From the NCBI RefSeq assembly GCF_030913705.1, contig NZ_CP133190.1:5109501-5173500 (forward strand): 64,000 nt of DNA, given 5' to 3'. The notes beneath the pieces are model-generated. The model was not told the origin of the DNA. It searched no databases and saw nothing but the letters and a program-made list of their open reading frames with translations. Below are positions 2,106 to 42,515 of the stretch, one piece after another. The stretch comes from Anaerocolumna sp. MB42-C2. Lineage in GTDB: Bacteria > Bacillota > Clostridia > Lachnospirales > Lachnospiraceae. A program made the position numbers and the translations under genes. Position 1 is the stretch's first letter, and each line of letters opens with the position of its first letter.

Positions 2106-3533
2106 ATGGATTTATTTTATACTCCGGAATATGCAAAAACCGGTGATGTAATACCTTTTTATAATGAAGAATTGAAACAGTTTGATCATTATTACTTAAA
2201 GAACTGGAATCCGGATGCACCAAAGGACAAAATTGTTCATGGCTGGCATCGAATTACAACCATGGATAACCGGAATTATATTGAAACGCCTACAAAAATC
2301 CATGGAGGAACCGGTTCCGTTATTAAAGCAGATGGCCTGTACCATATGTTTTACTGCACATTTGATCAGAATCCCCCTGCGCAGTGGGCCAGACATGCAA
2401 TCAGTAAAGATCTGACCGAGTGGGAGGACGTTCCGGAGGATAAGTTCGGTCCGGATGGTGTGATTTACAATATGTCTGACTGGAGAGACCCTTATGTATT
2501 TTGGAATGAAGAAGAGAATAAGTGGTGGATGCTTCTGGCAGCCAGAGAGAATGCTCCAACGGAAAGAAACGGTTGTGTAGCTCTTTGCGCATCAGAGGAC
2601 CTGTCAAAATGGGAATATAGAAAGCCGATCTATGCGCCACGCTTTAACCAGGCAGCAAACGAATGCCCGGATTTATTTAAAATGGGTGACTGGTATTATC
2701 TGGTATACTCCAATTATACGGACGGTTTCTGTACTTATTACAGGATGAGTCAATCTTTAAACGGTCCCTGGATTCGCCCGGAAGTGGATACTTTTGACGG
2801 TAGGGCTTTTTATGCGGCTAAGACCGGTTTTGACGGAAAAGACCATTATGTATATGGATGGAATCCCACCAGAGGCGAGAATGGTTGGGGATTTGACCCG
2901 GGTAAAGACTTCGGTAAGGATTATAAAACCTGGAACTGGGGCGGCTCTATTGTAGTGCATAAGATTATCCAGCGCGCAGACGGTACCCTGGGAGTGTGCC
3001 CGGTAGAAAGTGTGGCAAATGCATTTAATAAAATACAAAATGCCAGCTTACAGTCCTTAACCGGAAACTGGGTAATAAATAAAAATACAGCAGTCTGCGA
3101 GTCTATGGATGGCTTTTCTTCCGCAATTGGTGATAAAATTCCGGAATTATGCTGTATTAAGGCGAAAATCAAATATAACGGAAATCCAACCCGATTTGGT
3201 ATTGCCTTACAAGTGGATGATACTTATGCACAGGGATATTATCTGATGTTTGAACCCTGGTACAACCGTATACAGTTCCGTTCCGGACTTCGGATGTATG
3301 AACAGGGAGGGCAGATGTTCCCTTATGCAGTAGAAATGGAACGTCTGATTAAACTGGAAGCGGGGAAAGAATATGAGCTTGCAATTTATATTCAGGATAC
3401 TCTTGCGGTTCTTTATGTAAATAATGAACTGGCATTTGGATTCCGTATGTACAATGAAAAGGATCGTCAGTTAGGTTTCTTTGTATCAGAAGGAACTCTG
3501 GAAGTAAAAGATGTAACCATTGAAGAGGAATAA
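2106..3533 (+). CDS. Divergent GH32-like (clan GH-J) glycosidase
   Basis: A 475-residue cytoplasmic enzyme (no signal peptide) with a five-bladed beta-propeller followed by a beta-sandwich, the GH32/GH43-type layout. The canonical WMNDPNG nucleophile motif is absent; instead GDVIPFY (Asp14) occupies that place. The other two signature blocks are clear: DWRDP (residues 125-129, stabilising Asp128) and NECPD (Glu186 as acid/base). A ribosome site (AAGGAG) precedes the ATG. Its stop lies 43 bases before the GH172 start, so the two are probably co-transcribed. A fructosidase acting on a short or modified fructoside, perhaps inulobiose, is likely from context; the exact linkage is not readable. 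Confidence 0.8.
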   Translation: MDLFYTPEYAKTGDVIPFYNEELKQFDHYYLKNWNPDAPKDKIVHGWHRITTMDNRNYIETPTKIHGGTGSVIKADGLYHMFYCTFDQNPPAQWARHAISKDLTEWEDVPEDKFGPDGVIYNMSDWRDPYVFWNEEENKWWMLLAARENAPTERNGCVALCASEDLSKWEYRKPIYAPRFNQAANECPDLFKMGDWYYLVYSNYTDGFCTYYRMSQSLNGPWIRPEVDTFDGRAFYAAKTGFDGKDHYVYGWNPTRGENGWGFDPGKDFGKDYKTWNWGGSIVVHKIIQRADGTLGVCPVESVANAFNKIQNASLQSLTGNWVINKNTAVCESMDGFSSAIGDKIPELCCIKAKIKYNGNPTRFGIALQVDDTYAQGYYLMFEPWYNRIQFRSGLRMYEQGGQMFPYAVEMERLIKLEAGKEYELAIYIQDTLAVLYVNNELAFGFRMYNEKDRQLGFFVSEGTLEVKDVTIEEE

Positions 3534-3576
3534 GAAGAGTACACTAAGAAATAAATACCATATAGGAGGAAATATC

Positions 3577-4677
3577 ATGTTTCATAACAGTATGGCAACA
3601 TTGCCGATTTTAAAAACAGGTAAAAGCAGAACCATTAACTGGGAAAACAGGACTGGGCAAAAGGGTGGGGGAGGCATGGCCGCCAGCGATCTGGGCCCAG
3701 AGAGAAAAGGATCACCCTGTATTCCGAAAATATCGGCCGGTGAGACAGTGACACTGGCAGAAATGGAGGGACCGGGTGTCGTTCAGCACATATGGATTAC
3801 CGTAACCGACCGTACCAGCGGCCGCAACCGATATGTACTTAGAGATTTGGTGCTGCGTATGTATTGGGATGGGGAAGAAACACCTTCTGTGGAAAGTCCT
3901 TTAGGCGATTTTTTCTGTTGTGGATTCGGTGTTTCCTATCCGGTTAATTCTATGCCTATCGTTGTAAACCCGACCAGGGGATTTAACTCGTATTTCCCTA
4001 TGCCGTTTGGAAAGAAAGCAAAAATTACGATAGAAAACCAGAATGATGAAGATATTAATGCATTTTTCTATCAGGTGGATTACTGTCTATATGATGAACT
4101 TCCGGAAAATACTGGCTATTTTCATGCTCAGTGGAGAAGACAGCGTCTAACCGAAAAAGGCAAAGATTATGTAATCCTTAACGGAGTGAAAGGAAAAGGC
4201 CAGTATGTTGGTACTTACATGGCACTTACGACCTTAGAACGTTATTGGTACGGAGAAGGAGAAGTAAAATTCTATCTGGATGGTGATGAAAAATATCCTA
4301 CAATTTGTGGAACCGGAACGGAAGATTATTTCGGAGGTGCCTGGAGTTTTGCAACCCAAGAGAACGGCAGGACCATAGAAAATACCTATTGTACACCATT
4401 TATGGGGTATCCTTATTATTCCCATCATGATACTTTTATCCATAACGATTACCATAATGATGATCAGATGCCCCAGAGAAGCTTCTATCGTTGGCATGTG
4501 ATGGATCCAATTCTATTTGAGGAAGATCTTAAAGTGACGATTCAGCAGATTGGGGTATACCACGGCGGCTTATTTGAAAGACAGGATGATGTGGCAACAG
4601 TAGCTTACTGGTACCAGACAGAACCCCATAATCCTTTCGGAACGTTAATGGAACGTAAAGAACGCTGGCCCAGATAA
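3577..4677 (+). CDS. GH172 (DUF2961) family enzyme, putative alpha-fructofuranosidase / difructose dianhydride hydrolase
   Basis: A 366-residue DUF2961 protein, the family now classed as GH172. Its founding member, from Bifidobacterium dentium, is a difructose dianhydride I synthase/hydrolase. Family hallmarks are FNSYFPMPF (residues 136-144), WYGEGEVKFYLDGD (224-237) and GTGTEDYFGGAW (245-256); the Glu residues in the last two blocks are the candidate catalytic pair. The ATG at 3577 was chosen because AGGAGGA lies seven bases before it; an in-frame start at 3520 would overlap the upstream gene. There is no signal peptide, so action is cytoplasmic. Position between two GH32-type genes supports breakdown of difructose anhydrides or alpha-linked fructosides to fructose. 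Family is near certain; substrate is inference. Confidence 0.88.
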   Translation: MFHNSMATLPILKTGKSRTINWENRTGQKGGGGMAASDLGPERKGSPCIPKISAGETVTLAEMEGPGVVQHIWITVTDRTSGRNRYVLRDLVLRMYWDGEETPSVESPLGDFFCCGFGVSYPVNSMPIVVNPTRGFNSYFPMPFGKKAKITIENQNDEDINAFFYQVDYCLYDELPENTGYFHAQWRRQRLTEKGKDYVILNGVKGKGQYVGTYMALTTLERYWYGEGEVKFYLDGDEKYPTICGTGTEDYFGGAWSFATQENGRTIENTYCTPFMGYPYYSHHDTFIHNDYHNDDQMPQRSFYRWHVMDPILFEEDLKVTIQQIGVYHGGLFERQDDVATVAYWYQTEPHNPFGTLMERKERWPR

Positions 4678-4756
4678 AGAAACGAGAAAAGATACCGAAA
4701 AAAGGGCAATTAAAAATTAAAGATGATAGAAACGAAGGCTAAGAGGGGAAGAGAGA

Positions 4757-6220
4757 ATGAGTAAAGTGTTAGAAAAAGCCAGAAAATATGAAATTGAAGT
4801 TTCAAAACAGATTCCGGAGGGACAAAAACCATCCTTCCATGTATGTGCACCGGTTGGCTGGATTAATGACCCTAACGGTTTTTCACTGTATCAGGGAGAA
4901 TATCATTTGTTTTATCAATATGATCCCTATCATGTTACTCAGGGGTTAATGCACTGGGGACACAGCAAATCAAAAGATTTTATTAAATGGGAACAGCTGC
5001 CGTGTGCTTTGGCACCGGATTCCAGTTATGATGGGCAGGGTTGTTTTTCTGGCAGTGCAGTGGAACATGACGGAAAACATATCCTGATGTATACTGGTGT
5101 ACTGGATAAAGAACAGGAAGACGGTTCCAGATTACTAAGGCAGACACAGTGTATTGCAATAGGAGACGGAGTGAACTATGAAAAACTGGATAGTAATCCG
5201 GTGATTACTAGTGATTTGCTGCCGGAAGGAAGCAGCAGGGAAGATTTCAGGGATCCGAAGATCTGGATAGAGGGAGAAGACTTCTATGCAATAATTGGAA
5301 GCAGGAGTGATAATACCGGCGGTCAGATTGTCTTGTTTAAATCCAAAGATGCAAAGAACTGGGAATATTTAGGTATTGTAGATGAAAGTCGAAATGAATA
5401 TGGAAAGATGTGGGAGTGTCCGGATTTCATTTACATAGACGGCAAACTGGTATTGCTCATTTCACCCACAGATATGCTGGCGGAAGGTCTGGAATTTCAT
5501 AATGGTAATAATACCATATATATCCTTGGGGATTATGACTTGGAAAATCATAAACTAATCCGGGAACGTGTAACAGCCATAGATTATGGACTGGATTTTT
5601 ATGCACCGCAGACACTGGAAACCGCAGACTGCAGAAGGATTATGATTGCGTGGATGCAGAGCTGGGATAACCATATCACACCGAAACACTTTAAATGGTC
5701 CGGTCTCATGACGGTTCCAAGGGAATTGTGTGTAAAAAACGGAATATTGTATCAAAATCCGGTAAGGGAATTAGAAAATTATTACCAGGACAAAGTAGAG
5801 TATGAGGCAGTAACTGTAAATGGGGAAAAAGAATTTATCGGTATTCAGGGCAGACAATTTGACATGACTGTGGAAGTGGAGACCGGTGATTACAAAGAAT
5901 TTGCTGTCCGCCTTGCTGCAGATGATAAATGTTATTCGGTTCTGCATTATAATGCGAAAGAAAATACGGTGACATTTGACCGTACTTGTTCCGGACTGAG
6001 TAAGGATATCATACATAAACGTTCCATGTATGTAAAAGAGCAGGGCGGTAAAATAAAACTACGTATATTGATGGACAAATATTCGGTGGAAGTTTTCGTA
6101 AATGACGGAGAACAGGCGATGACTTCTCTGATTTATACTTCCATGGAAGCGGATCAAATCCGATTCCTTAGTAAAGGTGAAGTTAAATGTAACATCGTCA
6201 AATACGATGTTGTAATATAA
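4757..6220 (+). CDS. scrB: GH32 beta-fructofuranosidase (sucrose-6-phosphate hydrolase type)
   Basis: A 487-residue canonical GH32 enzyme. The nucleophile motif WINDPNG holds Asp38, the stabiliser motif FRDP holds Asp166 and the acid/base motif WECPDF holds Glu220. A C-terminal beta-sandwich follows (SVEVFVNDGE). There is no secretion signal, so it hydrolyses imported sucrose(-6-phosphate), inulobiose or related beta-fructosides in the cytoplasm. GAGGGGAAGAGAG precedes the ATG. It lies 79 bases behind the GH172 gene, and the fructokinase that would take its product follows after a MATE gene. As no PTS sucrose permease lies here while an ABC importer does, an unphosphorylated substrate is more likely, so the symbol is by family only. 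Confidence 0.9.
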   Translation: MSKVLEKARKYEIEVSKQIPEGQKPSFHVCAPVGWINDPNGFSLYQGEYHLFYQYDPYHVTQGLMHWGHSKSKDFIKWEQLPCALAPDSSYDGQGCFSGSAVEHDGKHILMYTGVLDKEQEDGSRLLRQTQCIAIGDGVNYEKLDSNPVITSDLLPEGSSREDFRDPKIWIEGEDFYAIIGSRSDNTGGQIVLFKSKDAKNWEYLGIVDESRNEYGKMWECPDFIYIDGKLVLLISPTDMLAEGLEFHNGNNTIYILGDYDLENHKLIRERVTAIDYGLDFYAPQTLETADCRRIMIAWMQSWDNHITPKHFKWSGLMTVPRELCVKNGILYQNPVRELENYYQDKVEYEAVTVNGEKEFIGIQGRQFDMTVEVETGDYKEFAVRLAADDKCYSVLHYNAKENTVTFDRTCSGLSKDIIHKRSMYVKEQGGKIKLRILMDKYSVEVFVNDGEQAMTSLIYTSMEADQIRFLSKGEVKCNIVKYDVVI

Positions 6221-6287: not shown

Positions 6288-6321
6288 ATTGTTATGTACA
6301 ATAAAAGACAGGTGGCTGATA

Positions 6322-7674
6322 ATGACAAAAAATATGACACAGGGAAATCCAATGAAAGTAATTTTTGCTTTTTCATTTCCTATGCTGTTAGGAGGGATCT
6401 TTCAGCAGATTTATAATATAACTGATGCATTAGTCTTAGGGAATTTTGTAGGATCACGGGCGTTGGCAGCGGTGGGGGCTACCGGCTCGGCTACCTTTTT
6501 TCTGTTAGCGGTGGCATCGGGACTAACAAATGCTTTCGCTATAGTCATTGCACAGTACTTTGGTGCGGGAGATGAGAAAAAAGTACGCCGTACGACAGCA
6601 GGTACGATCTATATTATGGCTGCGGCCGGAATTATTTTATCCCTGGCAGGCATTTTCGGTGCAAGACCGCTGATGGAACTTTTGCAGGTTCCTGAGGATA
6701 TCAGGGATCAATCTGTTGTATATATCCATATATGTGTCGGAGGTTCGGCGGGACAGATTGTGTACAATGGTGCTGCATCTATTCTGAGGGCAGTAGGGGA
6801 CAGCCGGACACCTCTTTATTTTCTTATTTTTTCTACGGTACTCAATGTGGGAATGGATGTCCTGTTTGTCACAATACTGCATATGGGAGTGGCAGGTGCG
6901 GCAACGGCCACCATTCTATCACAGCTTACAGCAGCCGTTCTGTGTGTGGTTTATATTTACCGAAGATTTGCAATTTTCAGACTGCATAGGGAAGATTTCC
7001 GGCCGGAGTTAAAGATAATCGGAATAATTGTAAAAATCGGTCTTTCCATGAGTATACAGAGTATTCTTCTATCCATTGGTGAGATGACGGTCAGTGCGGT
7101 GGTAAACGGATTTGGTACAGATGTGGTAGCCGCATATACAACCGGCAACCGGGTGCACCAAATAGCAGCATTGGTGTTTTTGAATCTGTCTCAGGCCTTT
7201 GCATTATATGCCGGACAGAATCTGGGTGCGGGGAAACTGGATCGTATAGAGGAGGGCTTTAAAAAAGTGGCACTGCTGATTTTGGGTTTAAGTGTTGTGG
7301 CCGGGATATTTATTTTCTGTTTTGGTGAACAGTTTGTGCGAGTATTTATCTCTTCTTCCGATACCCATGTGGACAATGTAGTAAAAGTAGCAGGCGGTAT
7401 GCTGAGGATTATTTCCTTTTTTTATCCTTTCCAGGGATTAATCTGGCTTTATAACAATACGATGCGGGGGATGGGAGAGATCATGATACCACTGATTTCC
7501 GGTATCATTGAACTGGCTGTTAAGGTAGGACTTTCTATTATGTTGGCAGGGTTATTTGGTTATGTCGGTATCTGGTATGCCGGACCGATTGGATGGGTGC
7601 TGGGAATGCTGCCTGCTTTTATTTGGCTGCACAGCGGAAAGTGGAAAAATCATGTGGATAAAATTGTCGGATAA
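6322..7674 (+). CDS. MATE family multidrug/organic-cation exporter
   Basis: A 450-residue membrane protein with the 12-helix, two-fold repeated MATE layout; the first repeat opens with FAFSFPMLLGGIFQQIYNITDALVLGNFVG, cut here as PMLLGGIFQQIYNITDA. It expels a small molecule using a Na+ or H+ gradient. The ATG at 6322 follows GACAGGTGG; a start at 6289 would lack a ribosome site and would overlap the right arm of the upstream inverted repeat. It lies between the GH32 and fructokinase genes. MATE genes often sit in Clostridial sugar loci without a proven role; overflow export of a sugar or by-product is a guess. Confidence 0.9.
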   Translation: MTKNMTQGNPMKVIFAFSFPMLLGGIFQQIYNITDALVLGNFVGSRALAAVGATGSATFFLLAVASGLTNAFAIVIAQYFGAGDEKKVRRTTAGTIYIMAAAGIILSLAGIFGARPLMELLQVPEDIRDQSVVYIHICVGGSAGQIVYNGAASILRAVGDSRTPLYFLIFSTVLNVGMDVLFVTILHMGVAGAATATILSQLTAAVLCVVYIYRRFAIFRLHREDFRPELKIIGIIVKIGLSMSIQSILLSIGEMTVSAVVNGFGTDVVAAYTTGNRVHQIAALVFLNLSQAFALYAGQNLGAGKLDRIEEGFKKVALLILGLSVVAGIFIFCFGEQFVRVFISSSDTHVDNVVKVAGGMLRIISFFYPFQGLIWLYNNTMRGMGEIMIPLISGIIELAVKVGLSIMLAGLFGYVGIWYAGPIGWVLGMLPAFIWLHSGKWKNHVDKIVG

Positions 7675-7828: not shown

Positions 7829-8794
7829 ATGAAAAAATTTGATGCAGTAGCACTCGGGGAGTTATTAATTGATTTTACAGATAATGGGAGGAGCATCCAG
7901 GGGAATACTATATTCGAAGCAAATCCGGGTGGGGCACCTTGTAATGTACTGGCCATGCTGAATAAATTGGGCCGTAAGACAGCATTTATCGGCAAAGTCG
8001 GAAAGGATATATTCGGAGTTAAACTAAAAACTGAATTGGAGGAAATCGGGATCGACACCTCCAACCTGGTTATAGATGAGGAGGTCCGCACCACACTGGC
8101 CTTCGTGCAGACTTTCGATGGCGGGGACCGGGATTTCTCTTTTTACCGTAATCCGGGTGCGGATATGATGTTAACAGCGGAAGAAATTCAGGATAGTCTG
8201 GTAACAGAAGCAAAAATTTTTCATTTCGGAACTCTTTCCATGACCCATGATGGGGTACGGGAAGCGACCAAAAAAGCCGTTACCCTGGCAAAATATAGCG
8301 GAGCGGTAATTTCGTTTGACCCTAACCTGCGTGAGCCATTGTGGAAATCCCTGGATGATGCTAGGAAGCAGGTTGATTATGGTTTATCCCAATGTGATGT
8401 ATTAAAAATCTCTGACAATGAGCTTTTATGGTTTACTGAAGAAAAGGAGTTTGATGCAGGAATTTCTGTAATTCGTGCTAATTACCATATTCCGCTTATC
8501 TTACTGTCCATGGGACGGGACGGCAGCCGGGCTTATTATAAAGATTTATCCGTGGAGGTACCTTCTTTCCTGCAGGAGAACACCATTGAAACAACCGGTG
8601 CGGGGGATACTTTTGGAGGAAGCTGCTTAAACTATGTATTGGAATATGGTCTTAATAACCTGGACGAAGAGAAATTAAAAGAGATGCTTACCTTTGCCAA
8701 TGCTGCTGCATCTATTATCACCACCAGGAAAGGTGCATTGCGTGTTATGCCCGAAGCAGACGAAGTAAAAGCATTTATTCAAAACAGAAAATAA
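7829..8794 (+). CDS. scrK: PfkB-family fructokinase
   Basis: A 321-residue ribokinase/PfkB-fold sugar kinase: ATP + fructose to fructose-6-phosphate (or 1-phosphate). The N-terminal GELLIDF and PGGAPCNVL (sugar lid with the GG hinge) and the C-terminal ETTGAGDTFGGS (catalytic Asp and anion hole, about residues 253-264) are intact. AAAAGGAG precedes the ATG. It collects fructose released by the GH32/GH172 enzymes and feeds glycolysis. Length and motifs match cytoplasmic fructokinases of sucrose and fructan operons; fructose specificity rests on both similarity and context. Confidence 0.92.
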   Translation: MKKFDAVALGELLIDFTDNGRSIQGNTIFEANPGGAPCNVLAMLNKLGRKTAFIGKVGKDIFGVKLKTELEEIGIDTSNLVIDEEVRTTLAFVQTFDGGDRDFSFYRNPGADMMLTAEEIQDSLVTEAKIFHFGTLSMTHDGVREATKKAVTLAKYSGAVISFDPNLREPLWKSLDDARKQVDYGLSQCDVLKISDNELLWFTEEKEFDAGISVIRANYHIPLILLSMGRDGSRAYYKDLSVEVPSFLQENTIETTGAGDTFGGSCLNYVLEYGLNNLDEEKLKEMLTFANAAASIITTRKGALRVMPEADEVKAFIQNRK

Positions 8795-8832: not shown

Positions 8833-10556
8833 ATGGTAAAAAAAAATTCTTAAAGCAGAATGATTTTTTGAACTATATCTTTAAATCAGTATTCCTAATC
8901 TTTATAATTTTTATTATAGTAAGTATTTTTTATAATTTATTTATCTATTATAAAGAAGAAGAGCATTATTCAGCCCTTGTTAAGAAAGGACAGATAGAAA
9001 GGCTGAACTATATTTCTAAAACCTTGGAAGAAGAAATCGGTAAAGTAAAGGTTGCGACCTATTTTGCAATGAAAGAGAATGCGGTTCTGGATTTATATGT
9101 AAAATTTAATTATGTGAATAGCCATCAGAAGAATAAATTATTAGAGGCTGTTGAGAAAAGATGTATGGAAATCAGCAATACAAACCCATATGTAAAAGAT
9201 TGCTATTTTTATTTAAATAAATATAAAATTAAAATTTCAATTGATAATTATAGTAATATGAATCAAAATGAAATTCTTAAAATAATTGACTTGGCGAAAC
9301 AAAGTAAAACATTGGTGAAAGCAGATAATAAAATTTTTATTGTTGATACCTTAAATATAGACTATTTAGGAGATAAATGGAGTTTGGATAATATTGCCGG
9401 AGTATTTGTAGCGGAGTTAGATATTAATAAATTAAAAAAAGAACTCAAATATGCAAAATTAACCGATAAGGATATGCTTTTTTTTACAGATAAGGATCAG
9501 GAAGAAATTTATATTAGTACAAAGACGGTAGAGGAATCTGTATTAAAACAAATTAATAATAAAAATATTTACTACAATCATGAAAAATATAAACTTCTTC
9601 ACTCAAATATCGAAAACTCCCACTATCAACTAATTTATCTGGAAAAACAGGATATGATTTCAATGATATATCAAAGGGCGGTTTTAAATATTTTAGGATT
9701 TTCTTTGATTGTATTATTGACGATTACAGTCTGCATTGTTTTATTTTACAGATATGTTGTGAAGCCTTTGAAAATCCTCTTAGTGGATGCTTTTGGACAA
9801 GTAAAGGAATCAAATTTCAGTTATAGAATAACGATCCCCGGGAATGAAGTATTTGACGATATTTATCAGAACTTTAACAATATGGTGGAGCGGATTGAAT
9901 TTTTGATTTCAAAAGAATTAAAGCAGGAAATTCTGGTGAATCAGGCAAATTTAAAACATTTGCAGGCACAAATCAACCCCCATTTTATGTATAATAGTTA
10001 TTTTGTGTTATACAGACTTATTAAAATAAATGACAGAGAAAACAGCTTACGTATTTGTGAAAATCTGGGCAGGTTTTTTCAGTATATTACAAGAGATTCA
10101 AAAGATGAAAAGAATTTATCCGATGAAATAAATCTGGCGCAGTCTTATACCATTATTCAGGGGTATCGTTTTAAAAACCAGATAATAATCGATTTTGAGG
10201 AACTTCCGGAACGTTATAATTATATTATTGTACCAAGATTAATTATTCAGCCTGTCATAGAAAATGTTTTTAAATATGTGGTCGATGAAATTTCAAATGA
10301 AGAAGTGATTTTAAAGGTACATTATTTTGAAGATATGGATGATTTAATTATCTGCATTGAAAATTCCGGACATATAACAAAGGAAGAATTGGAAAAAATT
10401 CAGCAAAGACTCCTTTCACCTGAAGAAAATGAAGATATTACGGCATTAATTAATATTAACTACCGGTTAAATATTTATTATAAGCAGGAAAAATCAGTGG
10501 AAGCATTTCAATCCTCTTTAGGAGGGTTAGAGGTTCATATTAAAGTGAGGATGTAG
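8833..10556 (+). CDS. YesM-type sensor histidine kinase (N-terminal frame interrupted at an A9 tract)
   Basis: Membrane sensor kinase of the YesM/LytS type. Transmembrane helix near the start, an extracellular region of about 250 residues, a second helix (NILGFSLIVLLTITVCIVLF), a HAMP linker, the His box HLQAQINPHFMYNS with the phosphorylated His, and a HATPase domain with the N-box IQPVIENVFKY. The natural start looks like ATG 8833, preceded by GGAGG, but a run of nine A at 8838-8846 leads to a stop after six codons. Ten A would read MVKKKFLKQNDFLNYIFKS straight into the long frame. Without that, translation would need TTG 8868, which has no ribosome site. It pairs with the response regulator starting four bases downstream and probably senses fructosides bound outside the cell. 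Confidence 0.85.
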
Positions 10557-10560
10557 AAAT

Positions 10561-12195
10561 ATGACAGAGAAAAGAAAATATACTTTATTAATTGTAGATG
10601 ATGAACCAATAATTTCAGATGGATTAAAAATCCTTTTTGAAGAGGAATTTCCGGGGGTATTTCAAATTTATAATTGCTATTATCCATTAAAAGCGATCGA
10701 GATTTTTAAATTTTTCAAACCGGATATTGTGGTAAGCGATATTAAAATGCCTAAAATGACAGGGATTGAAATGGTTGATAAAATGAGAAAAATAAAAGAT
10801 GAGATACATGTATTATATCTCTCCGGTTATGATGAATTCGACTTTGTATATTCTGCAATTAAGCAGGAGGCAGATGATTATATCCTGAAAACAGAAGGGG
10901 ATGCAATGATTGTTGAGGCAATGAAGAAAATGCTTTTAATGATAGAAAAAAATAATTCATTTATAGAAGAATACCAATCCGTCCAAAACAAGATTCTTTA
11001 TATGGAACCGGCCTATAAGCAGCAAGCGATAGGTTATATTTTAGATGGCATAATAGGCACAGAAGAAGAATTTGATCTTATTATGGCTGATTTAGAAAAA
11101 CCCATAGCAAAACAAGCCGGATTTTTAATAATTATTGGAAGCTGTAAAGAAATAAATCCCAGGAAAGTACAGGAGAATATCCTGGAAACGGTACGGCAAT
11201 TATTGATGAAAGCATATACGGGTAAGATTGATTTGATTCATAATACGATATACCGGAATAATTTTGTATGGATGATTGAGACAGAGGAGGCGGAATTACC
11301 GAAATTACTGCTGATATCCGTTGTTGATATACAAGAGAAGATTCAAAAAAATCTTGGAATTTTAATCTGTTTTGGTATCGCAGCGGAGGTAGTTAAATGG
11401 TATGAATTATCCGGAAAATATATGGAACTGTGGGAACAGATTCAAAGAAGTGTTATTAATGAGGAAAATAATATTATATTGGAAAACACAAGAAAGAATC
11501 AGGATTTTAACGGAGAAGACAGTACATTAACGGAAATGTTCGGTACGATTACAGAAAGATTCAAACTATTAAAAGAACAATTAGATACGGATAATTTTAC
11601 GGCATTTCGTTATTTGCTGAAAGAACTATTAAGAATTCTATCTGAGGCTAAGAGACATTCTATGTATGCTTTGGAAATATTTTATTATATTTCCAATATT
11701 CTGATTTCTTACATTAACAAAACTAATATCCGAATCGAATTAACTTCCAGAATACAGTTAATTGCTTTATTTGACCCGGGAGTATTTCATTCCTGGAAAC
11801 AGGCAGCTGATTATATCTTTGAATTAACGGATGCCATAGAAGAAATCAGAAATACAACAAACAGGAATGATATGGCGAATATAGCCGAAAAAACAAAATC
11901 CTATATCATTACACATATAGCGGATGATTTATGCCTGACCAAAATTGGATCGGTAATGGGATTTAACCCTGTTTATCTGGCAAGAATATTTAAACAGTTT
12001 GAAAAAGAAGGAATCAGAAATTATATTGAAAATTGCAGAATGGAGCTTGCATACCAATTAATTATGAATTCTAGGCTGAAAATATTTGAGATAGCAGAAA
12101 AATGCGGGTATCAGAACACTGCATATTTTATTAAGATTTATAAAAATCATTATAATATGACACCCCAGGAATGCAGGGAAAGAATGAATTTGTAA
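10561..12195 (+). CDS. YesN-type response regulator with AraC output domain
   Basis: A 544-residue response regulator. Receiver domain at about residues 6-125 with the acidic pocket (VDDEP), the phospho-acceptor Asp in VVSDIKMPKMTG, the Ser in LSGYDEFDF and the Lys in DDYILKTEG. A long middle region of unknown function follows, and the C-terminal 100 residues form an AraC double helix-turn-helix (LTKIGSVMGFNPVYLARIFK, then FEIAEKCGYQNTAYFIKIYK). It starts four bases after the kinase gene, so the two are translated together. Such pairs activate the adjacent LplB/YtcP-type importer genes; activation of the promoter between 12,240 and 12,325 is the likely job. Confidence 0.93.
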   Translation: MTEKRKYTLLIVDDEPIISDGLKILFEEEFPGVFQIYNCYYPLKAIEIFKFFKPDIVVSDIKMPKMTGIEMVDKMRKIKDEIHVLYLSGYDEFDFVYSAIKQEADDYILKTEGDAMIVEAMKKMLLMIEKNNSFIEEYQSVQNKILYMEPAYKQQAIGYILDGIIGTEEEFDLIMADLEKPIAKQAGFLIIIGSCKEINPRKVQENILETVRQLLMKAYTGKIDLIHNTIYRNNFVWMIETEEAELPKLLLISVVDIQEKIQKNLGILICFGIAAEVVKWYELSGKYMELWEQIQRSVINEENNIILENTRKNQDFNGEDSTLTEMFGTITERFKLLKEQLDTDNFTAFRYLLKELLRILSEAKRHSMYALEIFYYISNILISYINKTNIRIELTSRIQLIALFDPGVFHSWKQAADYIFELTDAIEEIRNTTNRNDMANIAEKTKSYIITHIADDLCLTKIGSVMGFNPVYLARIFKQFEKEGIRNYIENCRMELAYQLIMNSRLKIFEIAEKCGYQNTAYFIKIYKNHYNMTPQECRERMNL

Positions 12196-12204
12196 TAAAA
12201 AAGC

Positions 12205-12238
12205 CTTGTTTACAGGTAATGTAAACAAGTGCTATTTT
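12205..12238 (+). terminator. Terminator with an embedded LacI-like operator
   Basis: Perfect 10-base inverted repeat CTTGTTTACA (12205-12214) and TGTAAACAAG (12220-12229) around GGTAA, followed by TGCTATTTTTTTT. It ends the kinase-regulator transcript. The arms also contain the TTTACA/TGTAAA half-sites seen in the LacI control region at 1741-1842, so the same bases may serve as an operator ahead of the importer genes. Confidence 0.75.
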
Positions 12239-12324
12239 TTTTGCTATAAAAGTATGAAAAGTTTTATATAACTCCTTTGTGCCAACTGGTATATTAAATA
12301 CTATAAAAGAGGAGGCGTTAGCAA

Positions 12325-13242
12325 GTGAATAAAAGGAAACGGAAAACAAAAAACTGGTTTTTGAGAGAATTACCATTTCATATTATGCTTTTACCAGCAG
12401 TTATCATAACATTTATTTTTAAATATATACCTTTTGCCGGAATTACCATGGCATTTGAAAAGTATTCTCCTTTAAAGGGTATGTTTAACCAAAAATGGGT
12501 AGGCTTTGATAATTATAAATATTTATTTTCATTACCCGGGTTTTCAAGTGTTATCTGGAATACGGTTTATATAGCATTATTAAAGATGATAGGTAATTTG
12601 ATTCTTCCCGTATTGATTGCGCTGCTGTTAAATGAAGTCAGATCGAAAGCATATAAGAAAACAGTACAGACGGTGCTTTACCTCCCCCATTTTATTTCCT
12701 GGGCGGCACTGGCAGGTATCTTTATTGATATCCTTTCGCCATCTGGCGGTATTGTTAATCAAATGCTGCAATTATTTGGTATGAAACCGGTATTCTTCCT
12801 CGGGAATTCATCAGTCTTTCCTTATACAATGGTTGTCAGCGATATCTGGAAAGAACTTGGATGGGGGACGATTGTATATTTAGCTGCGATTACTGGAATT
12901 GATCCTACCTATTATGAGGCAGCAAAAATTGATGGTGCCGGACGTTTAAAACAAACATTATATGTAACGATTCCCAGTATATTACCCATGATACTTTTAA
13001 TGATGGTCCTGAGTGTGGGTAATGTATTACAGGCCGGTTTTGAGCAGGTTTATAATTTATACAGCCCGCAGGTATACAGTACCGGGGATATTATTGATAC
13101 TTTTGTTTACCGGATAGGTGTTATCGAGACCAGATTCGATCTGGCAACAGCGGTTGGCCTTTTTAAATCGGTTATATCTTTTATTCTTATAACGGTTGGT
13201 TATAAGCTTGCTGATAAAATGGCAGGATACAAGGTATTCTAG
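12325..13242 (+). CDS. Sugar ABC transporter permease, LplB type
   Basis: A 305-residue inner-membrane permease with six predicted helices and the EAA loop YYEAAKIDGAGRLKQTLYVTIP that contacts the ATPase. The sequence resembles LplB/YtcP partners found with YesMN systems (opening FHIMLLPAVIITFIFKYIPFAGI). AGAGGAGGC precedes the GTG/ATG region; the start used here is ATG 12325. It is the first of three genes encoding one importer with the permease and binding lipoprotein downstream. No ATPase gene is present, which is normal for this class because a shared MsmX-type ATPase serves several importers. Confidence 0.92.
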   Translation: MNKRKRKTKNWFLRELPFHIMLLPAVIITFIFKYIPFAGITMAFEKYSPLKGMFNQKWVGFDNYKYLFSLPGFSSVIWNTVYIALLKMIGNLILPVLIALLLNEVRSKAYKKTVQTVLYLPHFISWAALAGIFIDILSPSGGIVNQMLQLFGMKPVFFLGNSSVFPYTMVVSDIWKELGWGTIVYLAAITGIDPTYYEAAKIDGAGRLKQTLYVTIPSILPMILLMMVLSVGNVLQAGFEQVYNLYSPQVYSTGDIIDTFVYRIGVIETRFDLATAVGLFKSVISFILITVGYKLADKMAGYKVF

Positions 13243-13365
13243 GAAGTGCCTTAAAGTATACCCTTGAGGCGCATAAAACTATATTTCAAATTAATTGTAT
13301 GGTATATTCGGGAAACTTATGTAGTATGGAATTGCCTAGTGAAAATGAAAGGATACATACACAGC

Positions 13366-14262
13366 ATGAAAATTAAAGAATCTTCTTCAAAAAAAGTATT
13401 TAATGTAATAAACTACGTTTTTTTAGGCTTACTGGGTCTAACCTGTATTTTGCCGTTGGTCAATCTGTTTTCCATTTCTTTTAGTGCAAGGGCATTAGTG
13501 GATGCGAATGCAGTGACATTCTGGCCGAAAGGTTTCAATACGGCTGCTTATGAGTATATCTTATCAAATAAGCAATATTATATATCCTTTGGAATCACAT
13601 TATGCAGGGTAATTTTAGGTTGGGGTGTAAATTTGGCACTTATTATTTTAGTGGCTTACCCGTTATCTAAGGATGATAAGAGAACTTTCCGGTGCAAAAA
13701 AATTTATACCTGGTTTTTCCTCATAACAATGTGCTTTAACGGAGGTTTAATACCAACATTCTTAGTTGTTAGTAAAATGCATTTAGTTAACTCATTTTGG
13801 GCGCTGATTTTACCGGAAGCTTTACCTATGTTCTGCGTACTTATCATGTTGAATTTTTTCAGAGGGATTCCAAAAGCAATTGAAGAAGCAGCACTGGTTG
13901 ATGGAGCAAATTGGTTTATTACAATGTTTAAAGTATATCTGCCATTATCTAAGCCGTCATTGGCTACCGTATCATTGTTTGTAATTGTTAACCACTGGAA
14001 TTCCTGGTTCGATGGTATGATTTATATGAATTTACCGGAAAAATATCCGTTAATGACATATCTGCAATCTATGGTACTGAAATTTGATATTTCCAAAATA
14101 ACTTCAGAAATGTTAATGAGAAATCCAAGTCTCATGGAGGTAACAGGCAGAGGTATTAAAGGAGCGATGATATTATTATGCACAGTCCCTATCTTACTGG
14201 TTTACCCATTCCTGCAGAAGTATTTCGTAGCAGGAGTAGTAATGGGCAGTGTGAAAGAGTAA
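13366..14262 (+). CDS. Sugar ABC transporter permease, YtcP type
   Basis: The second permease subunit, about 298 residues from ATG 13366, with six helices and the EAA loop AIEEAALVDGANWFITMFKVYLP. The end, KYFVAGVVMGSVKE, matches the family. Start choice is uncertain: the frame is open to a TTG at 13264, and ATG 13345 is possible; ATG 13366 (MKIKESSSKKVFN) gives the usual family N-terminus and has AAAGGA upstream at a rather long spacing. It forms a heterodimer with the LplB-type protein and imports an oligosaccharide or fructoside. Confidence 0.9.
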   Translation: MKIKESSSKKVFNVINYVFLGLLGLTCILPLVNLFSISFSARALVDANAVTFWPKGFNTAAYEYILSNKQYYISFGITLCRVILGWGVNLALIILVAYPLSKDDKRTFRCKKIYTWFFLITMCFNGGLIPTFLVVSKMHLVNSFWALILPEALPMFCVLIMLNFFRGIPKAIEEAALVDGANWFITMFKVYLPLSKPSLATVSLFVIVNHWNSWFDGMIYMNLPEKYPLMTYLQSMVLKFDISKITSEMLMRNPSLMEVTGRGIKGAMILLCTVPILLVYPFLQKYFVAGVVMGSVKE

Positions 14263-14314
14263 GAAATTAAGCGAATGCTTAATTATAAATCAAGAATCAA
14301 AGGAGGATTTTTTT

Positions 14315-16021
14315 ATGAAAGTTAAAAAACTATTATCAATGTTATTGGCAATTGTAATGGTTGTATCCCTTGGGGCATGTAGCAGTACGCCGGATGAAAC
14401 TTCTGGTGGGGATGCATCCGTTACGGAAACAGGGGCTGAAACAACAGATGCATCCACAGATAAGCCTGTTGAACTGACCTATATGCACAAACTTTTTGGG
14501 GATGAGAAATTTGTTGGAAACGACGATATCAACAACAATGTATGGACCAGGTATTACAAAGAAAAATTGGGGATTAAACTGAATTACGTAGTTGCAGCGG
14601 CAGGCGATGATTATACCCAGAAACTTACCATGGCAATTGCATCCGATGATTTGCCGGATATAATGGATCTTCCCCCGGAAGAATTTAAGGAATTGGCTGA
14701 TGCAGGGCTTTTATATGATTTATCGGATTTATATGATAAGTATGCATCTGATCTACTGAAACAGTCACTGGAAGCAGATGGAGGAACACAGCTGACGTCC
14801 GCTAAAGTCGATGGCAAATTATATGGCTTTCCTCAACCGGCAGCATCGGATTCCACGGTTGATATGATTTGGGTACGGTCTGATTGGCTCAAAAATTTGG
14901 GATTAAGTGCACCAACCACCATGGACGAATTAATAAAGGTAGCAAGAGCCTTTAAAAATGATGATCCGGATGGCAATGGAGTAGATGATACTTGGGGTAT
15001 CGGTTTTCAAAACAAGATTTGTGATAAAGACGGAGCCAGCCCGGGCAGTTTTGAAGGTTTCTTTGCCGCTTATGGTTCTTATTCCAAAGCATGGCTCAGA
15101 GGACAGGACGGGACCATCCAATACTCAGGCATTGAAAATGGAATCAAGGATGCATTAATACAGTTAAATACAATATATAAAGAAGGGCTGATAGATCCGG
15201 AATTTGGAGTAAAAGATACGACAAAGCTTTCCGAAGATATTGCATCCGGTAAAGTCGGTCTGTTTTATGGTACGGAAGGGATACCGTGGGGTTGTGCCAA
15301 GAGCAGTATTGAAAATAATCCGAAGGCAGATTGGGTGAGTCTTCCGATTGTATCTGCCACAGACAAACCGGCAGTAGCGCCCATGTATGTTAGAATTACA
15401 CGCTATTTTGCAGTCAACAAGAACTGCAAGAATCCGGAAGCTATCTTTAAAATAGCCAATGTCTTCCAGGAGAAGATTAATTCTATTGATTCAGATGAAG
15501 AAACATTAAATACTTTTGGTGTAGATCCCGCAACAGGAGCTAATCTTGCTGCCTATGCAGCTATTGGTTTAGATCCTGCCATTCAAAAATGTAATACCTA
15601 TTATTCAGAAATCAAATCAGTTTTTGATGGAAAATCGACAGTGGATCAGATTCATCCTGAAGCCGCCCGTTATTATAAGGTGATGAAAGAATATATAGAC
15701 AGCGGTTATGATAAAACCAACTCATTGGGATGGAACTATTATAAATTTATCGGACCTGAGGGAAGCTGGAATACAATCATCAATGATTATAAAGCAAATA
15801 ACAGAACCACAGAATCCTTATTCTTTGGTGCACCAACGGCCACTATGAGTACGAGTTTAGCTTCCCTTGATAAACTACAGTCGGAAACCTATGTTAATAT
15901 CATTATGGGAACACAGGGACCGGATACATTTGATAAATTCGTCACTGACTGGAAAACACTTGGCGGTGACCAGATTACAAAAGAAGTCAATGAATGGCAT
16001 AAAACTACTTTCGGGAATTAG
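14315..16021 (+). CDS. Extracellular sugar-binding lipoprotein (LipO/YtcQ type)
   Basis: A 568-residue solute-binding protein. The lipoprotein signal peptide ends in the lipobox LGAC with Cys22 as lipid anchor, followed by a Ser/Thr/Glu/Gly-rich linker. The mature part is a large two-lobed cluster-type binding protein, longer than most sugar-binding proteins, as is usual for LipO/YtcQ proteins paired with LplB/YtcP permeases. AAAGGAGG precedes the ATG. It captures the sugar outside the membrane for the two upstream permeases and may also present it to the sensor kinase. The ligand is probably a fructo-oligosaccharide or difructose anhydride, by context. Confidence 0.93.
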   Translation: MKVKKLLSMLLAIVMVVSLGACSSTPDETSGGDASVTETGAETTDASTDKPVELTYMHKLFGDEKFVGNDDINNNVWTRYYKEKLGIKLNYVVAAAGDDYTQKLTMAIASDDLPDIMDLPPEEFKELADAGLLYDLSDLYDKYASDLLKQSLEADGGTQLTSAKVDGKLYGFPQPAASDSTVDMIWVRSDWLKNLGLSAPTTMDELIKVARAFKNDDPDGNGVDDTWGIGFQNKICDKDGASPGSFEGFFAAYGSYSKAWLRGQDGTIQYSGIENGIKDALIQLNTIYKEGLIDPEFGVKDTTKLSEDIASGKVGLFYGTEGIPWGCAKSSIENNPKADWVSLPIVSATDKPAVAPMYVRITRYFAVNKNCKNPEAIFKIANVFQEKINSIDSDEETLNTFGVDPATGANLAAYAAIGLDPAIQKCNTYYSEIKSVFDGKSTVDQIHPEAARYYKVMKEYIDSGYDKTNSLGWNYYKFIGPEGSWNTIINDYKANNRTTESLFFGAPTATMSTSLASLDKLQSETYVNIIMGTQGPDTFDKFVTDWKTLGGDQITKEVNEWHKTTFGN

Positions 16022-16048
16022 TTGACTAAAATGAGCGAGGTTAAACAG

Positions 16049-17470
16049 ATGAAAGGCAATTATAATATTTTTTATACCCCGGAAAAACAGTACCCGGGAA
16101 TGCCTCATGGAGAGATGTGCGGTGATTTCATGCCGTTTTACTGGAAAGGCACGTTTTATCTTTTCTACTTATATAAATACTGTGTTTATGTAGTGGAAAC
16201 AAAAGATTTTGTAAGGTATGGAATGCCAAAACTGGTATTACAGAACGGATCACCGGATGATCAGGACTGGCATATAGGCACAGGCAGTGTTTTCCATCAT
16301 GATGGATTATTTTACTTCCATTATACAGGATTCTGTGAAGGAAACCATAATGTTGAGGGCAAAAATGAGCAGGTAGTAATGCGTGCTGTAAGTACGGATT
16401 TAAATACCTGGGTAAAGGATAAAGAATTCTTTTTTAAACCGGATATAGAACATTATGGTAACCTTCATTGGAGGGATCCTCATGTTATCTGGAACGAAGA
16501 ACTTCAAAAATACTGTATGATTATTACAGCGACAGAAAAAGAAGGAGCCTTTTTAAGAAACGGATGTACAGCGGTGTATGTTTCGGATGATGTTAAGAAC
16601 TGGAAGCACTATAAAAAGTTATATGCACCAAGAACTTTCATTACCCATGAGTGCCATGATGCATTTCAGATAGGCAAGTGGTGGTATTTATCTTTTTCTA
16701 ACTATTCACGGTGGTGGGAGACGAGATACCGTATATCCGAAAGTTTTAACGGACCCTGGACTATGCCGGATTTTGATGATATGTTTGACGGAAGAGAATT
16801 TTATGCGGCAAAAACGGTATCGGATGGTACAAGAACGTATCTGGTAGGCTGGCAGTCAGTCAGAAAAGATTGTAAAGATGAAGAGAAGTTTGTGTGGGGC
16901 GGGAATGTACTTGTACATGAATTAGTCCAGAGACCGGATGGTACTTTAGGTGTCGGAATGGTAAAAGAAATAGAAGAATCCTTTCAAGAAAAAGTTCCCA
17001 TGTCAATGATAGAAAGGCAAGGAGCCTGGAGTGGGACTGATATGATTCAAGGTGAATCAAAAGATGGTTTTGGCTGGGCAGAGATCGGCAGACTATCCGA
17101 TACTTCTTTATTTGAAACAACAATTGAGTGGGAGGAGGGTACCAAAGCAGTTGGATTAATGATTCATACAAGTGATGAAAAATTAGAAAAATGGTGCCAG
17201 CTACGCCTTGAAATAACACATAATAAGATAGTTATGGATCGTTATAACAGAATTGACGGAGAGCAATACTACATGGATGAAAGACCTGTCATATTTCAAG
17301 GGAATAAAGCAACGGTTAAGTTAATTGTCAGCGGAAGTATTATGCTGGCATATGTAGGGGATGTGGCACTTTCTACCCGCTGCTACAGTGTTGATCCAGG
17401 CTCTGTAGGTATATTTGTAGAATATGGAAAGGTGAATTGCAGAGATACGAAGCTGCTTGGTCAAAAATAG
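16049..17470 (+). CDS. Divergent GH32-like (clan GH-J) glycosidase
   Basis: A 473-residue paralogue of the enzyme at 2106, again cytoplasmic, with propeller plus beta-sandwich. The nucleophile motif is GDFMPFY (Asp26) rather than WMNDPNG, the stabiliser motif HWRDP holds Asp143, and the acid/base motif reads HECHD (Glu201) where most relatives have ECPD. It shares GTGSV with its paralogue. ATG 16049 is preferred because GAGCGAGG lies eight bases upstream; ATG 16031 or TTG 16022 in the same frame are alternatives. The gene directly follows the binding protein and ends the importer operon before two terminators. It likely hydrolyses the imported sugar; linkage unknown. Confidence 0.8.
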   Translation: MKGNYNIFYTPEKQYPGMPHGEMCGDFMPFYWKGTFYLFYLYKYCVYVVETKDFVRYGMPKLVLQNGSPDDQDWHIGTGSVFHHDGLFYFHYTGFCEGNHNVEGKNEQVVMRAVSTDLNTWVKDKEFFFKPDIEHYGNLHWRDPHVIWNEELQKYCMIITATEKEGAFLRNGCTAVYVSDDVKNWKHYKKLYAPRTFITHECHDAFQIGKWWYLSFSNYSRWWETRYRISESFNGPWTMPDFDDMFDGREFYAAKTVSDGTRTYLVGWQSVRKDCKDEEKFVWGGNVLVHELVQRPDGTLGVGMVKEIEESFQEKVPMSMIERQGAWSGTDMIQGESKDGFGWAEIGRLSDTSLFETTIEWEEGTKAVGLMIHTSDEKLEKWCQLRLEITHNKIVMDRYNRIDGEQYYMDERPVIFQGNKATVKLIVSGSIMLAYVGDVALSTRCYSVDPGSVGIFVEYGKVNCRDTKLLGQK

Positions 17471-17843: not shown

Positions 17844-19349
17844 AAAAATACAGAGTGGGCTTTTGTTGGGATTTACGCTGATGAGGCTATTACCGGAACA
17901 AAGACAGTAAAGCGTGAAGGGTTTTTGAATATGATAAAAGACTGTATGAATGGACAGATAGACATCATATTAACCAAGTCTATTTCAAGATTCTCAAGGA
18001 ATCTGGTAGATACGCTTCAGTATGTCCGTTTACTGAAAGAGAAAAATATTGCTATCGTGTTTGAGAAGGAAAATATCAATACTCTTTCCATGGAAAGTGA
18101 AATGGCATTAGCACTTCTAAGCACTTTGGCTCAAAATGAAGTAGAATCACTGTCGGCTAATGTAAAAATGGGTATTAAGATGAAAATGAAGCGCGGCGAA
18201 ATGATGGGCTTTAATGGCTGTCTGGGATATGATTATCATTCGGAAGATAAAACAATTACAGTTAATGAAGAGGAAGCTCAAACTGTTCGCTGGATTTTTG
18301 AACAGTATATCATGGGATATGGTTCTTATACCATTGTAAATCAACTGGTTCAGCTTGGTAAGAAAAATAAGAAAGGCAAGGTGAAATGGACGGATAGTGG
18401 AATAATAGGAATTATCTCCAATGAGAAATACAAAGGAGATTTATTACTTGGTAAGACATTTACTGTTGATCCGATTTCAAAACGAAGGCTTGATAACATG
18501 GGAGAAGAGGACCAGTTCTATATTAAAAATCATCATGAACCTATTATTTCTGCCGAAATGTGGAATAAAGCCCAGGAAATTCGTAAAAAGCGTTATAAGG
18601 AAAATGTGCTGACGATTGGCGGTACAAGGGAAAAGTTTACAAGAAAATATGCGCTCAGCAGTCTTTGTGAGTGTGGGTTTTGTGGAACTAAACTCACAAG
18701 ACGAGCCCATAATCAAGACACACATTCTACAAAGCCGGTTTGGAAGTGCAGGACAGCTACTAATAAAGGTAAAGATTTATGCCCTCATAGTAAAGCTTTA
18801 GATGAAGTAATTATTGAAAACGCATTCTTAGAGGTATATCGGTTGTTGTCAGTTAATTTTGATGATGTATTGGATTCTGTTCTTGCAACAGTAGAGGATG
18901 CCTTAGCAAATGAAGAAGATATAGTAAGATTAAAGAAAATTGAAAAATCTTTGAGTGCATGGGAGTCTAAGCGAAAAAAATTGACTGATATGCTATTGGA
19001 TGATACAATTTCTAAAGAAGCATATGATGAGAAATATAATGATTTTACGGATAAGATTAATCAGAGTAAAAATGAAAAGGAACTCTTGATGCTAAATTTA
19101 GATTCTAAAAAAAACATCAAAATACGTATGAAGGATTTAAGAGAAAGGCTATCGGAAGTAGATATGCTTGACGAGTTTGACAGAGTTGTATTTGAAAGCA
19201 TTGTAGAGAAAGTAATCGTTGGCGAAACAAACGAAGATGGTTCGATTGATCCGTATAAATTAACGTTTGTACTGAAAGGAAATGGGTATAAGGCAATTCC
19301 TGATGCGAAGGAAAGATATATAAGTTTATGTAAAAAGCAAATTAGTTGA
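17844..19349 (+). pseudogene. Large serine recombinase, N-terminal catalytic region missing
   Basis: The frame is open from 17844 after an in-frame stop at 17841. It reads NTEWAFVGIYADEAITG, the second half of a resolvase catalytic domain, then ISRFSRNLVDTL, a recombinase domain, a zinc-ribbon (CECGFCGTKLTRR, later a C-x4-C pair) and a coiled coil. The expected first 50-60 residues with the YCRVS nucleophile Ser are absent, and no matching sequence was found just upstream. It is therefore a decapitated site-specific recombinase of the kind that mobilises integrative elements. An internal ATG at 17931 could only give an inactive fragment. A scar resembling the RlmD/RumA C-terminus lies 180 bases downstream. 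Confidence 0.85.
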
Positions 19350-42285: not shown

Positions 42286-42318
42286 AAAAAGTACCTCTCT
42301 CTTATAGAATAGAATTTT

Positions 42319-42366: not shown

Positions 42367-42515
42367 TGTTTTAACAAATATAAATTTTAAAATTTGGATA
42401 AGTATGATATAATTGTAATAGAACAATCTTTTTTCAAGTCATAAAATAAATAACGCTTAAAAGTACCCTCACATTACGTTTTGAGTCTTGAGCGTAGCAA
42501 AGGAATGGAATAAAT

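Follow-up and report, generated by a model that had tools for sequence, protein, structure and literature searches.

Gene content of the island

We analyzed a window of 64,000 nucleotides, positions 5109501-5173500 of the 6.44 Mb single-contig genome of Anaerocolumna sp. MB42-C2 (Lachnospiraceae), together with the 15 kb directly before it (locus L084), to describe a sugar-utilization island centered on a gene of glycoside hydrolase family 172 (GH172; DUF2961) that lies between 2 GH32 genes. Within the window, the island comprises the following genes.

1-469, + strand: ATP-binding cassette (ABC) permease, 3' part; second permease of the upstream importer (PF00528 on L084:14642-15466)
622-1710, - strand: LacI-type repressor, divergent from the GH genes (PF00356, PF13377)
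2106-3533, + strand: BT1760-like GH32 (PF00251, E 2.2e-18; PF16346, 33.2 bits, cut-off 31.4)
3577-4677, + strand: GH172 (DUF2961), 366 aa (PF11175, E 8.5e-96)
4757-6220, + strand: canonical GH32 beta-fructofuranosidase, ScrB subfamily (PF00251, E 2.4e-95; PF08244)
6289-7674, + strand: MATE-family exporter (PF01554; TIGR00797 above cut-off)
7829-8794, + strand: PfkB-family sugar kinase (PF00294)
8868-10556, + strand: histidine kinase of a two-component pair (PF06580)
10561-12195, + strand: AraC-type response regulator (PF00072, PF12833)
12325-13242, + strand: ABC importer permease A (PF00528)
13264-14262, + strand: ABC importer permease B (PF00528), true start probably downstream of the listed TTG
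14315-16021, + strand: importer sugar-binding protein (PF01547), N-terminus lipoprotein-like by eye
16022-17470, + strand: further GH32 (PF00251, E 1.9e-19; PF16346 unmatched; motifs GDFMPF, WRDPH, and HECHD)

A preliminary description of this DNA had placed a DUF2961 gene between a divergent and a canonical GH32 gene, with LacI, fructokinase, two-component, and ABC importer genes around it; Pfam matches confirmed these families, the kinase as a member of the PfkB family. The MATE gene and the GH32 gene at 16022-17470 are additions to that description. The frames at 2106-3533, 3577-4677, and 4757-6220 are all open and in order, and the GH172 gene is intact; given the AGGAGG ahead of the ATG at 3577, this is its likely start, and the TTG listed at 3520 is a mechanical one only. 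The permease at 1-469 begins approximately 360 bases before the window and is the last gene of a GH32-binding protein-permease-permease module that stands directly before GH172 in several other genomes.

The island reaches at least 9 kb upstream of the window and measures approximately 27 kb in all, most of it inside the window. Towards the window, L084 encodes a DUF5696 protein, a permease-like protein (by eye), a permease, a binding-protein-sized gene with no Pfam family above cut-off, and a lipoprotein-like GH32, followed by a LacI gene, a HAD hydrolase, a second LacI gene, a GH32, a binding protein (L084:12338-13651), and 2 permeases. The first of these GH32 genes (L084:5861-7471) has an N-terminus with a hydrophobic stretch and then a Cys, lipoprotein-like by eye. 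The earlier claim of no secreted enzyme therefore fails for the island, holding by eye for the window's own GH genes alone. At its upstream limit, the stretch read contains the DUF5696 gene (L084:124-2379, E 1.1e-168), whose product has, by eye, an N-terminus of the membrane type.

Of 8 PF00251 matches in the genome, 5 lie in the island (5.1004-5.1270 Mb), which holds 5 of the 6 matches with E < 1e-15. The cut-off for the BT1760-like C-domain was passed by 2 of the 5 island GH32 proteins, encoded by the gene at 2106 and the lipoprotein-like gene, and the GH32 genes at 16022-17470 and L084:10781 fall in the same cluster (c2) as the gene at 2106. Neither the frames of L084 nor the window genes with starts ahead of 17500 contain a Walker A motif (G..G.GK[ST]), and this stretch therefore encodes no importer ATPase; importers of this class usually use a shared ATPase encoded elsewhere.

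GH32 enzymes and the sugar kinase

The GH32 at 2106 matched the endo-levanase BT1760 (6r3r) over nearly its whole length (query residues 2-472, E 8.3e-41), and its triad is intact, with the motifs GDVIPF (Asp14), WRDPY, and NECPD corresponding to Asp41, Asp169, and Glu221, the triad given for BT1760 (PMC6560043). The 2 enzymes share this triad and the C-domain family; the relationship is distant and no signal peptide was seen by eye on the protein encoded here, so that endo-levanase action is not established for it. The GH32 at 4757 scored 402.7 bits against TIGR01322 (cut-off 356.4) and carries the motifs NDPNG, FRDP, and WECPD. The best NCBIfam match of the PfkB kinase was the fructokinase PRK09434, with 196.4 of 450 bits, far below the cut-off.

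Residues and fold of the GH172 protein

The GH172 protein matched the full PF11175 profile with 320 bits. We aligned it to alphaFFase1, the founding GH172 enzyme and difructose dianhydride I synthase/hydrolase of the Bifidobacterium dentium operon (BBDE_2040, 7v1v), and identified both catalytic residues, whose absence would have refuted the preliminary description: the acid/base Glu227 and the nucleophile Glu249, corresponding to Glu270 and Glu291 of alphaFFase1. The conserved block pointed out earlier, GTGTEDYFGGAW, was found and contains Glu249. Asp292, Trp267, and Trp298 of alphaFFase1 are also retained, and Tyr187 is replaced by Phe, a change that in alphaFFase1 leaves 90% of the activity on p-nitrophenyl (pNP) arabinofuranoside (Araf) and 31% of that on inulobiose (PMC8605356).

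Other active-site features differ. The loop carrying Glu85 of alphaFFase1 is absent, Lys147 is aligned with Thr133, in a loop whose length differs and where the alignment is uncertain, and the calcium ligands Asn31, Asp33, and Asn272 are replaced by Gly, Pro, and Glu. Mutants of alphaFFase1 at Glu85 and Lys147 keep 94-100% of the activity on pNP-alpha-D-Araf and less than 5% on inulobiose (PMC8605356), and these are therefore the residues that make alphaFFase1 a difructose enzyme. The gate residue is Ser257, where alphaFFase1 has Gly299 and ExoMA1, an exo-alpha-D-arabinofuranosidase of Microbacterium arabinogalactanolyticum, has Asn253. Gly299 leaves space for the hydroxymethyl group of fructose and Asn253 obstructs it (PMC10509167), and Kashima et al. 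considered that the Cys at the gate of BACUNI_00161 would clash with fructose (PMC8605356).

The closest solved proteins were, in order, ExoMA1 (8ic8, E 7e-80), 4kq7, 8ah3, and alphaFFase1 (7v1v, E 3.3e-45), with identities over aligned positions of 45.0%, 37.6%, 35.4%, and 36.4% (321 positions), respectively. An AlphaFold2 monomer model (pLDDT 88) showed the double jelly-roll fold, with template modeling (TM) scores of 0.86 to 8ic8, the best match, and 0.73 to 7v1v, and with weak matches to PRD1-type capsid proteins as well. The pocket of alphaFFase1 and ExoMA1 is situated between subunits and is therefore beyond what a monomer model displays.

Position in the GH172 tree

We built a maximum-likelihood tree of 91 proteins; 1 short row (L045, 239 aa) had been dropped before alignment. 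The 80 loci behind it are those closest to the window protein among the matches listed, so that the breadth and the tree are biased to its kin; many of their contigs end near the GH172 gene, and the loci are not independent. One group (support 99/96) joined alphaFFase1, its orthologue in L043 (Clostridium sp. Marseille-P2415), a copy in L056, DgGH172c, and 4kq7. A second group of 84 rows (95/92) held everything close to the window protein, ExoMA1 included. Within it, ExoMA1 fell in a weakly supported side of 20 rows (83/36), beside an ExoMA1-type Cohnella copy (99/89), and the window protein fell in a fork of 64 rows (88/76) that includes sets of 50 (95/96), 45 (97/83), and 21 rows (100/100), the last mainly from Lachnospiraceae, plus Faecalibacterium, Scatolibacter, and Clostridium sp. 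The window GH172 thus lies outside both characterized groups, and by these support values its split from ExoMA1 has moderate support and the one from alphaFFase1 good support. Two GH172-like proteins of 554 aa from Paenibacillus (L051:19205-20866 and L054:15542-17203), encoded near GH32 genes, were placed far outside the other rows and may be a doubled form of GH172 or a highly divergent one.

The residue counts cover 81 rows, of which 64 belong to the window's fork and 17 to the ExoMA1 side. Set aside were the 4 solved proteins, the alphaFFase1-type protein of L043, the related L056 copy, the 554-aa copies of L051 and L054, and, for L049 and L035, the second copy of each. Both catalytic Glu residues are kept in all 64 fork rows, and the Glu85 position falls in a gap in every one of them. 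The gate residue in the fork is Ser in 49 rows, Gly in 10, Ala in 4, and Cys in 1, with no Asn. A Lys aligned with Lys147 was found in 5 fork rows, including a paralogue from the same genome (L085), the window protein not being among them.

Distribution of GH172 genes

The genome has 2 full GH172 genes, both in the window's fork. The second (L085:11412-12650, around 4423810) is 72% identical and is accompanied by an ABC importer and a two-component pair; its locus may be a minimal system in which GH172 is the sole hydrolase. A remnant of a third GH172 gene was identified at L003:1501-1638 (4131860-4131997), covering 41 of 235 profile positions in a 70-aa frame.

A search of 32 genomes found a full-length alphaFFase1-type gene (at least 69% identity to the L043 copy) in 2 genomes, the L043 genome included, and no alphaFFase1 orthologue in the genome studied here. 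L043 also has a copy that shares 91% identity with the window GH172 across residues 53-366, approximately 6 kb from its alphaFFase1 orthologue (E 4e-256 to 7v1v), after which GH32 and PfkB genes follow. Across the family, PF11175 was matched in 19 of 150 genomes, the present one included; the same-genus genome G055 had none, and 111 of the 150 genomes are counted as lacking a match without being listed individually. The other 18 genomes with a match comprised 8 with a window-type copy (at least 67% identity, near full length), 3 with an intact alphaFFase1-type copy (78-79%), 2 with a piece of one, and 5 with other kinds only. The alphaFFase1-type and window-type GH172 genes are separate genes.

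Linkage to GH32 genes and gene order

Of 31 loci, 15 had a GH32 gene within 10 kb of GH172; the number expected at the genome-wide GH32 density is 0.67, and the maximum in 100,000 simulated draws was 6. These 31 loci, which the density expectation covers, are mostly isolate genomes picked out of the 80 after the GH32 labels had been seen; the background was counted as Pfam matches per genome and the local genes by blastp to the window GH32 proteins (E 1e-8), which are 2 different detectors, some local labels stand at 25-30% identity, genome sizes were rounded, and the GH32 counted for L043 belongs beside its alphaFFase1 gene. Across all fetched loci, GH32 labels were found in 25 of 80, distributed as 25 of 63 inside the fork versus 0 of 17 outside it, the latter being mostly metagenome bins. 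GH32 stands directly after GH172 in 10 of 82 rows and directly before it in 7, the window being counted in both. Eisenbergiella porci (L004) is a cultured relative with the GH172-GH32 pair.

We identified 3 recurrent modules, whose importer sets do not cluster together. Module I consists of GH32, a binding protein, 2 permeases, and GH172 and was found in L034, L048, L051, L053, L054, L056, and L057, spanning Lachnospiraceae, Spirochaetaceae, and Paenibacillaceae; it recurs in the present genome with a LacI and a GH32 gene standing ahead of GH172. Module II, with a two-component pair, a binding protein, 2 permeases, and GH172 and without GH32, was found at the L085 paralogue and in L024, L030-L033, and L046; in L023 an overlapping frame hides the GH172 row, and in L027 and L029 the two-component genes are differently clustered or missing. 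Module III has a two-component pair, 2 permeases, a binding protein, and GH32 with GH172 nearby, and occurs in L006, L016, and the window. The run of histidine kinase, response regulator, permeases, binding protein, and GH32 that leads to the gene at 16022 is found again in L006; L016 has it too, interrupted by GH172 and GH32. On the evidence of module III, the downstream half of the island (8868-17470) appears to be part of the same system. The proximity of DUF2961 genes to carbohydrate importers, as well as a DUF2961-GH32 fusion, had already been published (PMC8812541).

Of 32 genomes, 1 had a match to GH183, the endo-D-arabinanase family; it belongs to a Cohnella in which an ExoMA1-type copy occurs as well. 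The GH183 profile PF13810 had no match in the present genome. The fucose/D-arabinose-isomerase family PF07882, present in 19 of the 32 genomes, has its copy here at 0.15 Mb, with the island at 5.1 Mb, and decides nothing; this family also serves L-fucose.

Several other genes in the window were recorded. MATE-like labels appeared in 9 of the 80 fetched loci at 23-33% identity, and the one here (6289-7674) sits inside the fructoside gene run. A serine recombinase gene (17925-19349; Resolvase from profile position 54 on, Recombinase, and zinc-ribbon) lies directly after the island and is a possible mobile-element border. Further downstream are 2 NADH:flavin oxidoreductases (40288-42426, - strand, and 44603-46570, + strand; Oxidored_FMN and Pyr_redox), with TetR-like genes near them by eye, and a group II intron reverse transcriptase/maturase (56869-58155); 2 frames between the importer and the alphaFFase1 gene of L043 resemble, by eye, a split reverse transcriptase/maturase gene.

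Discussion

We propose, with a probability of about one half, that imported small alpha-D-fructofuranosides are opened by GH172 and finished by the GH32 enzymes in what is read as a fructoside-use island of a gut bacterium of the Clostridia. The surface-bound-looking GH32 upstream of the window would partly trim fructosides, and we infer that the ABC importers would take small fructose-containing sugars into the cell. In the cytoplasm, GH172 would act as a retaining exo-furanosidase, with Glu249 as nucleophile and Glu227 as acid/base, and remove a D-fructofuranosyl unit, or one chemically like it, held by an alpha linkage; beta-fructosyl bonds would be cut by the BT1760-like GH32 and the canonical GH32, the PfkB kinase would phosphorylate the released hexose, and LacI and the two-component pair would switch the genes. 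A fructoside role for the window GH172 is favored on the GH32 linkage and the rarity of GH183. The families, catalytic residues, tree grouping, gene order, and GH32 linkage are results of the computation, whereas the substrate, the retaining chemistry, the kinase product, the regulation, and the direction of transport are inferences.

Several observations weigh against this proposal. By both sequence and fold, the closest characterized enzyme is an alpha-D-arabinofuranosidase (8ic8), whose alpha-D-fructofuranosidase activity is weaker (PMC10509167), and the fork is set apart from it at moderate support only. The gate residue Ser257 is intermediate, being larger than Gly299. No GH32 was in reach in 16 of the 31 counted loci or in 38 of the 63 fork loci, and no GH32 label was found within the 20 kb read around the L085 paralogue. 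The window-type copy in L043 may be broken, because its first 52 residues are unmatched. Finally, the open-access papers searched, which do not exhaust what is in print, yielded no assay, ligand, or expression data for GH172 proteins of this fork, the 7 assayed enzymes in the portions of that literature covered here being alphaFFase1, ExoMA1, DgGH172a-c, NocGH172, and MycGH172.

More tentatively, the fork may represent a third widespread GH172 group with its own specificity, acting on imported alpha-D-fructofuranosides other than difructose dianhydride I (DFA I), e.g., further caramel-type fructose dianhydrides or mixed alpha-fructosides. Its members come from Lachnospiraceae, Faecalibacterium, Paenibacillaceae, Spirochaetota, Bifidobacterium, Lactobacillus, and Haloferax.

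The alternative that survives best, though we consider it unlikely, is that GH172 works as an exo-alpha-D-arabinofuranosidase on D-arabinofuranosides that are imported and stem from glycans of actinobacterial or other origin, with the GH32 neighborhood secondary. ExoMA1 is the nearest relative in E-value, identity, and TM score and shares the 84-row group, inside which its separation from the fork has only moderate support, and alphaFFase1 also cleaves alpha-D-Araf (PMC8605356). However, Asn253, to which the specificity of ExoMA1 has been ascribed (PMC10509167), is Ser here and is Asn in none of the fork rows, the GH183 partner family was limited to a single genome, and the surroundings here are GH32 genes. 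D-arabinan use as a general role for the group was set back by the near absence of GH183 and by the gate residue.

We regard as rather improbable that GH172 is a DFA I hydrolase converting DFA I to inulobiose, which GH32 would then split, as modeled for B. dentium. The kinds of genes that stand side by side here (LacI, GH32, GH172, and ABC importer) are those of the B. dentium operon (PMC8605356), the catalytic residues are retained, substrates of the DFA type need both alpha and beta cutters, which fits GH172 and GH32 as direct neighbors, and a few fork proteins, among them the L085 paralogue, do have Lys at the Lys147 position. On the other side, the identity of 36.4% falls below the conserved-pocket set of Kashima et al. 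(>47.45%; PMC8605356), and Glu85 and Lys147, required for inulobiose and dispensable for pNP-alpha-D-Araf in alphaFFase1 (PMC8605356), correspond to a gap throughout the fork and, with an unsure alignment, to Thr in the window protein. The 2 proteins also belong to separate groups of the tree, and full-length alphaFFase1 orthologues are rare and missing from this genome. An assignment of the window GH172 to the DFA I type was accordingly rejected on residues, identity, tree position, and the existence of alphaFFase1 orthologues as separate genes.

Least probable is an ordinary levan/inulin oligosaccharide island of several GH32 genes in which GH172 is a freely shuffled accessory for an unrelated furanoside: the 5 GH32 genes, the 3 importer sets that do not cluster together, the frequent absence of GH32, and the small number of family genomes with GH172, with none in G055, agree with it, whereas GH172 and GH32 are direct neighbors repeatedly, in varying orders and with GH32 genes of more than one type, which independent repeated insertion at unrelated sites would hardly yield, and among the fetched loci GH32 labels occur only inside the fork.

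The preliminary description had proposed that the locus takes up a difructose anhydride or alpha-linked fructoside, opens it with GH172, and splits the product with a GH32 enzyme. The Glu pair, the importer genes, and a GH32 linkage beyond chance sustain this scheme in part; the step from the founding enzyme to difructose dianhydride is not supported, as the Glu85 loop is gone, Lys147 is unmatched, Ser replaces Gly299, and the protein is nearer to an alpha-D-arabinofuranosidase and apart from alphaFFase1. Nor is the scheme new, because import and use of DFA I through a LacI-GH32-GH172-ABC locus has been modeled for B. dentium (PMC8605356).

Among known systems, the island resembles the alphaFFase1 operon (PMC8605356) in the GH172 fold and Glu pair, in the company of LacI, GH32, and ABC genes, and in a GH172 enzyme without a signal peptide. 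Unlike alphaFFase1, with approximately 448 residues and a long C-terminal helix, the window GH172 has 366 residues and a shorter C-terminus, is only 36% identical, belongs to a separate tree group, and lacks the Glu85 loop, a match to Lys147, the calcium-site Asn and Asp residues, and the Gly at position 299. With ExoMA1 (PMC10509167), it shares 45% identity, a TM score of 0.86, and the missing Glu85 loop; it differs in having Ser for Asn253 and in standing in a GH32 island, in contrast to the GH183/GH116 D-arabinan cluster of ExoMA1. DgGH172c and BACUNI_00161 (8ah3 and 4kq7; PMC10115798, PMC8812541) have the family and catalytic residues in common with it, whereas they are 35-38% identical, group with alphaFFase1, and carry a gate Cys, BACUNI_00161 having an export signal as well. 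The DFA III clusters of Blautia (GH91, GH32, and ABC importer; PMC11538131) also belong to gut Lachnospiraceae and combine ABC import, intracellular opening, and GH32, but their opening enzyme, GH91, is of a different family.

The locus is real and well formed and is an ordinary kind of sugar island; its new part is the GH172 clade. The labels "DFA I hydrolase" and "D-arabinofuranosidase" could be transferred to such proteins by similarity alone; both fail the residue test, and neither is safe. The comparison singles out Ser257 and the missing loop as the diagnostic features. If the reading of a third group is true, some gut bacteria carry this type of GH172, others the alphaFFase1 type, and a few both. 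If the group opens dietary alpha-fructosides, it would give gut bacteria a further route to use the products of heated sugar.

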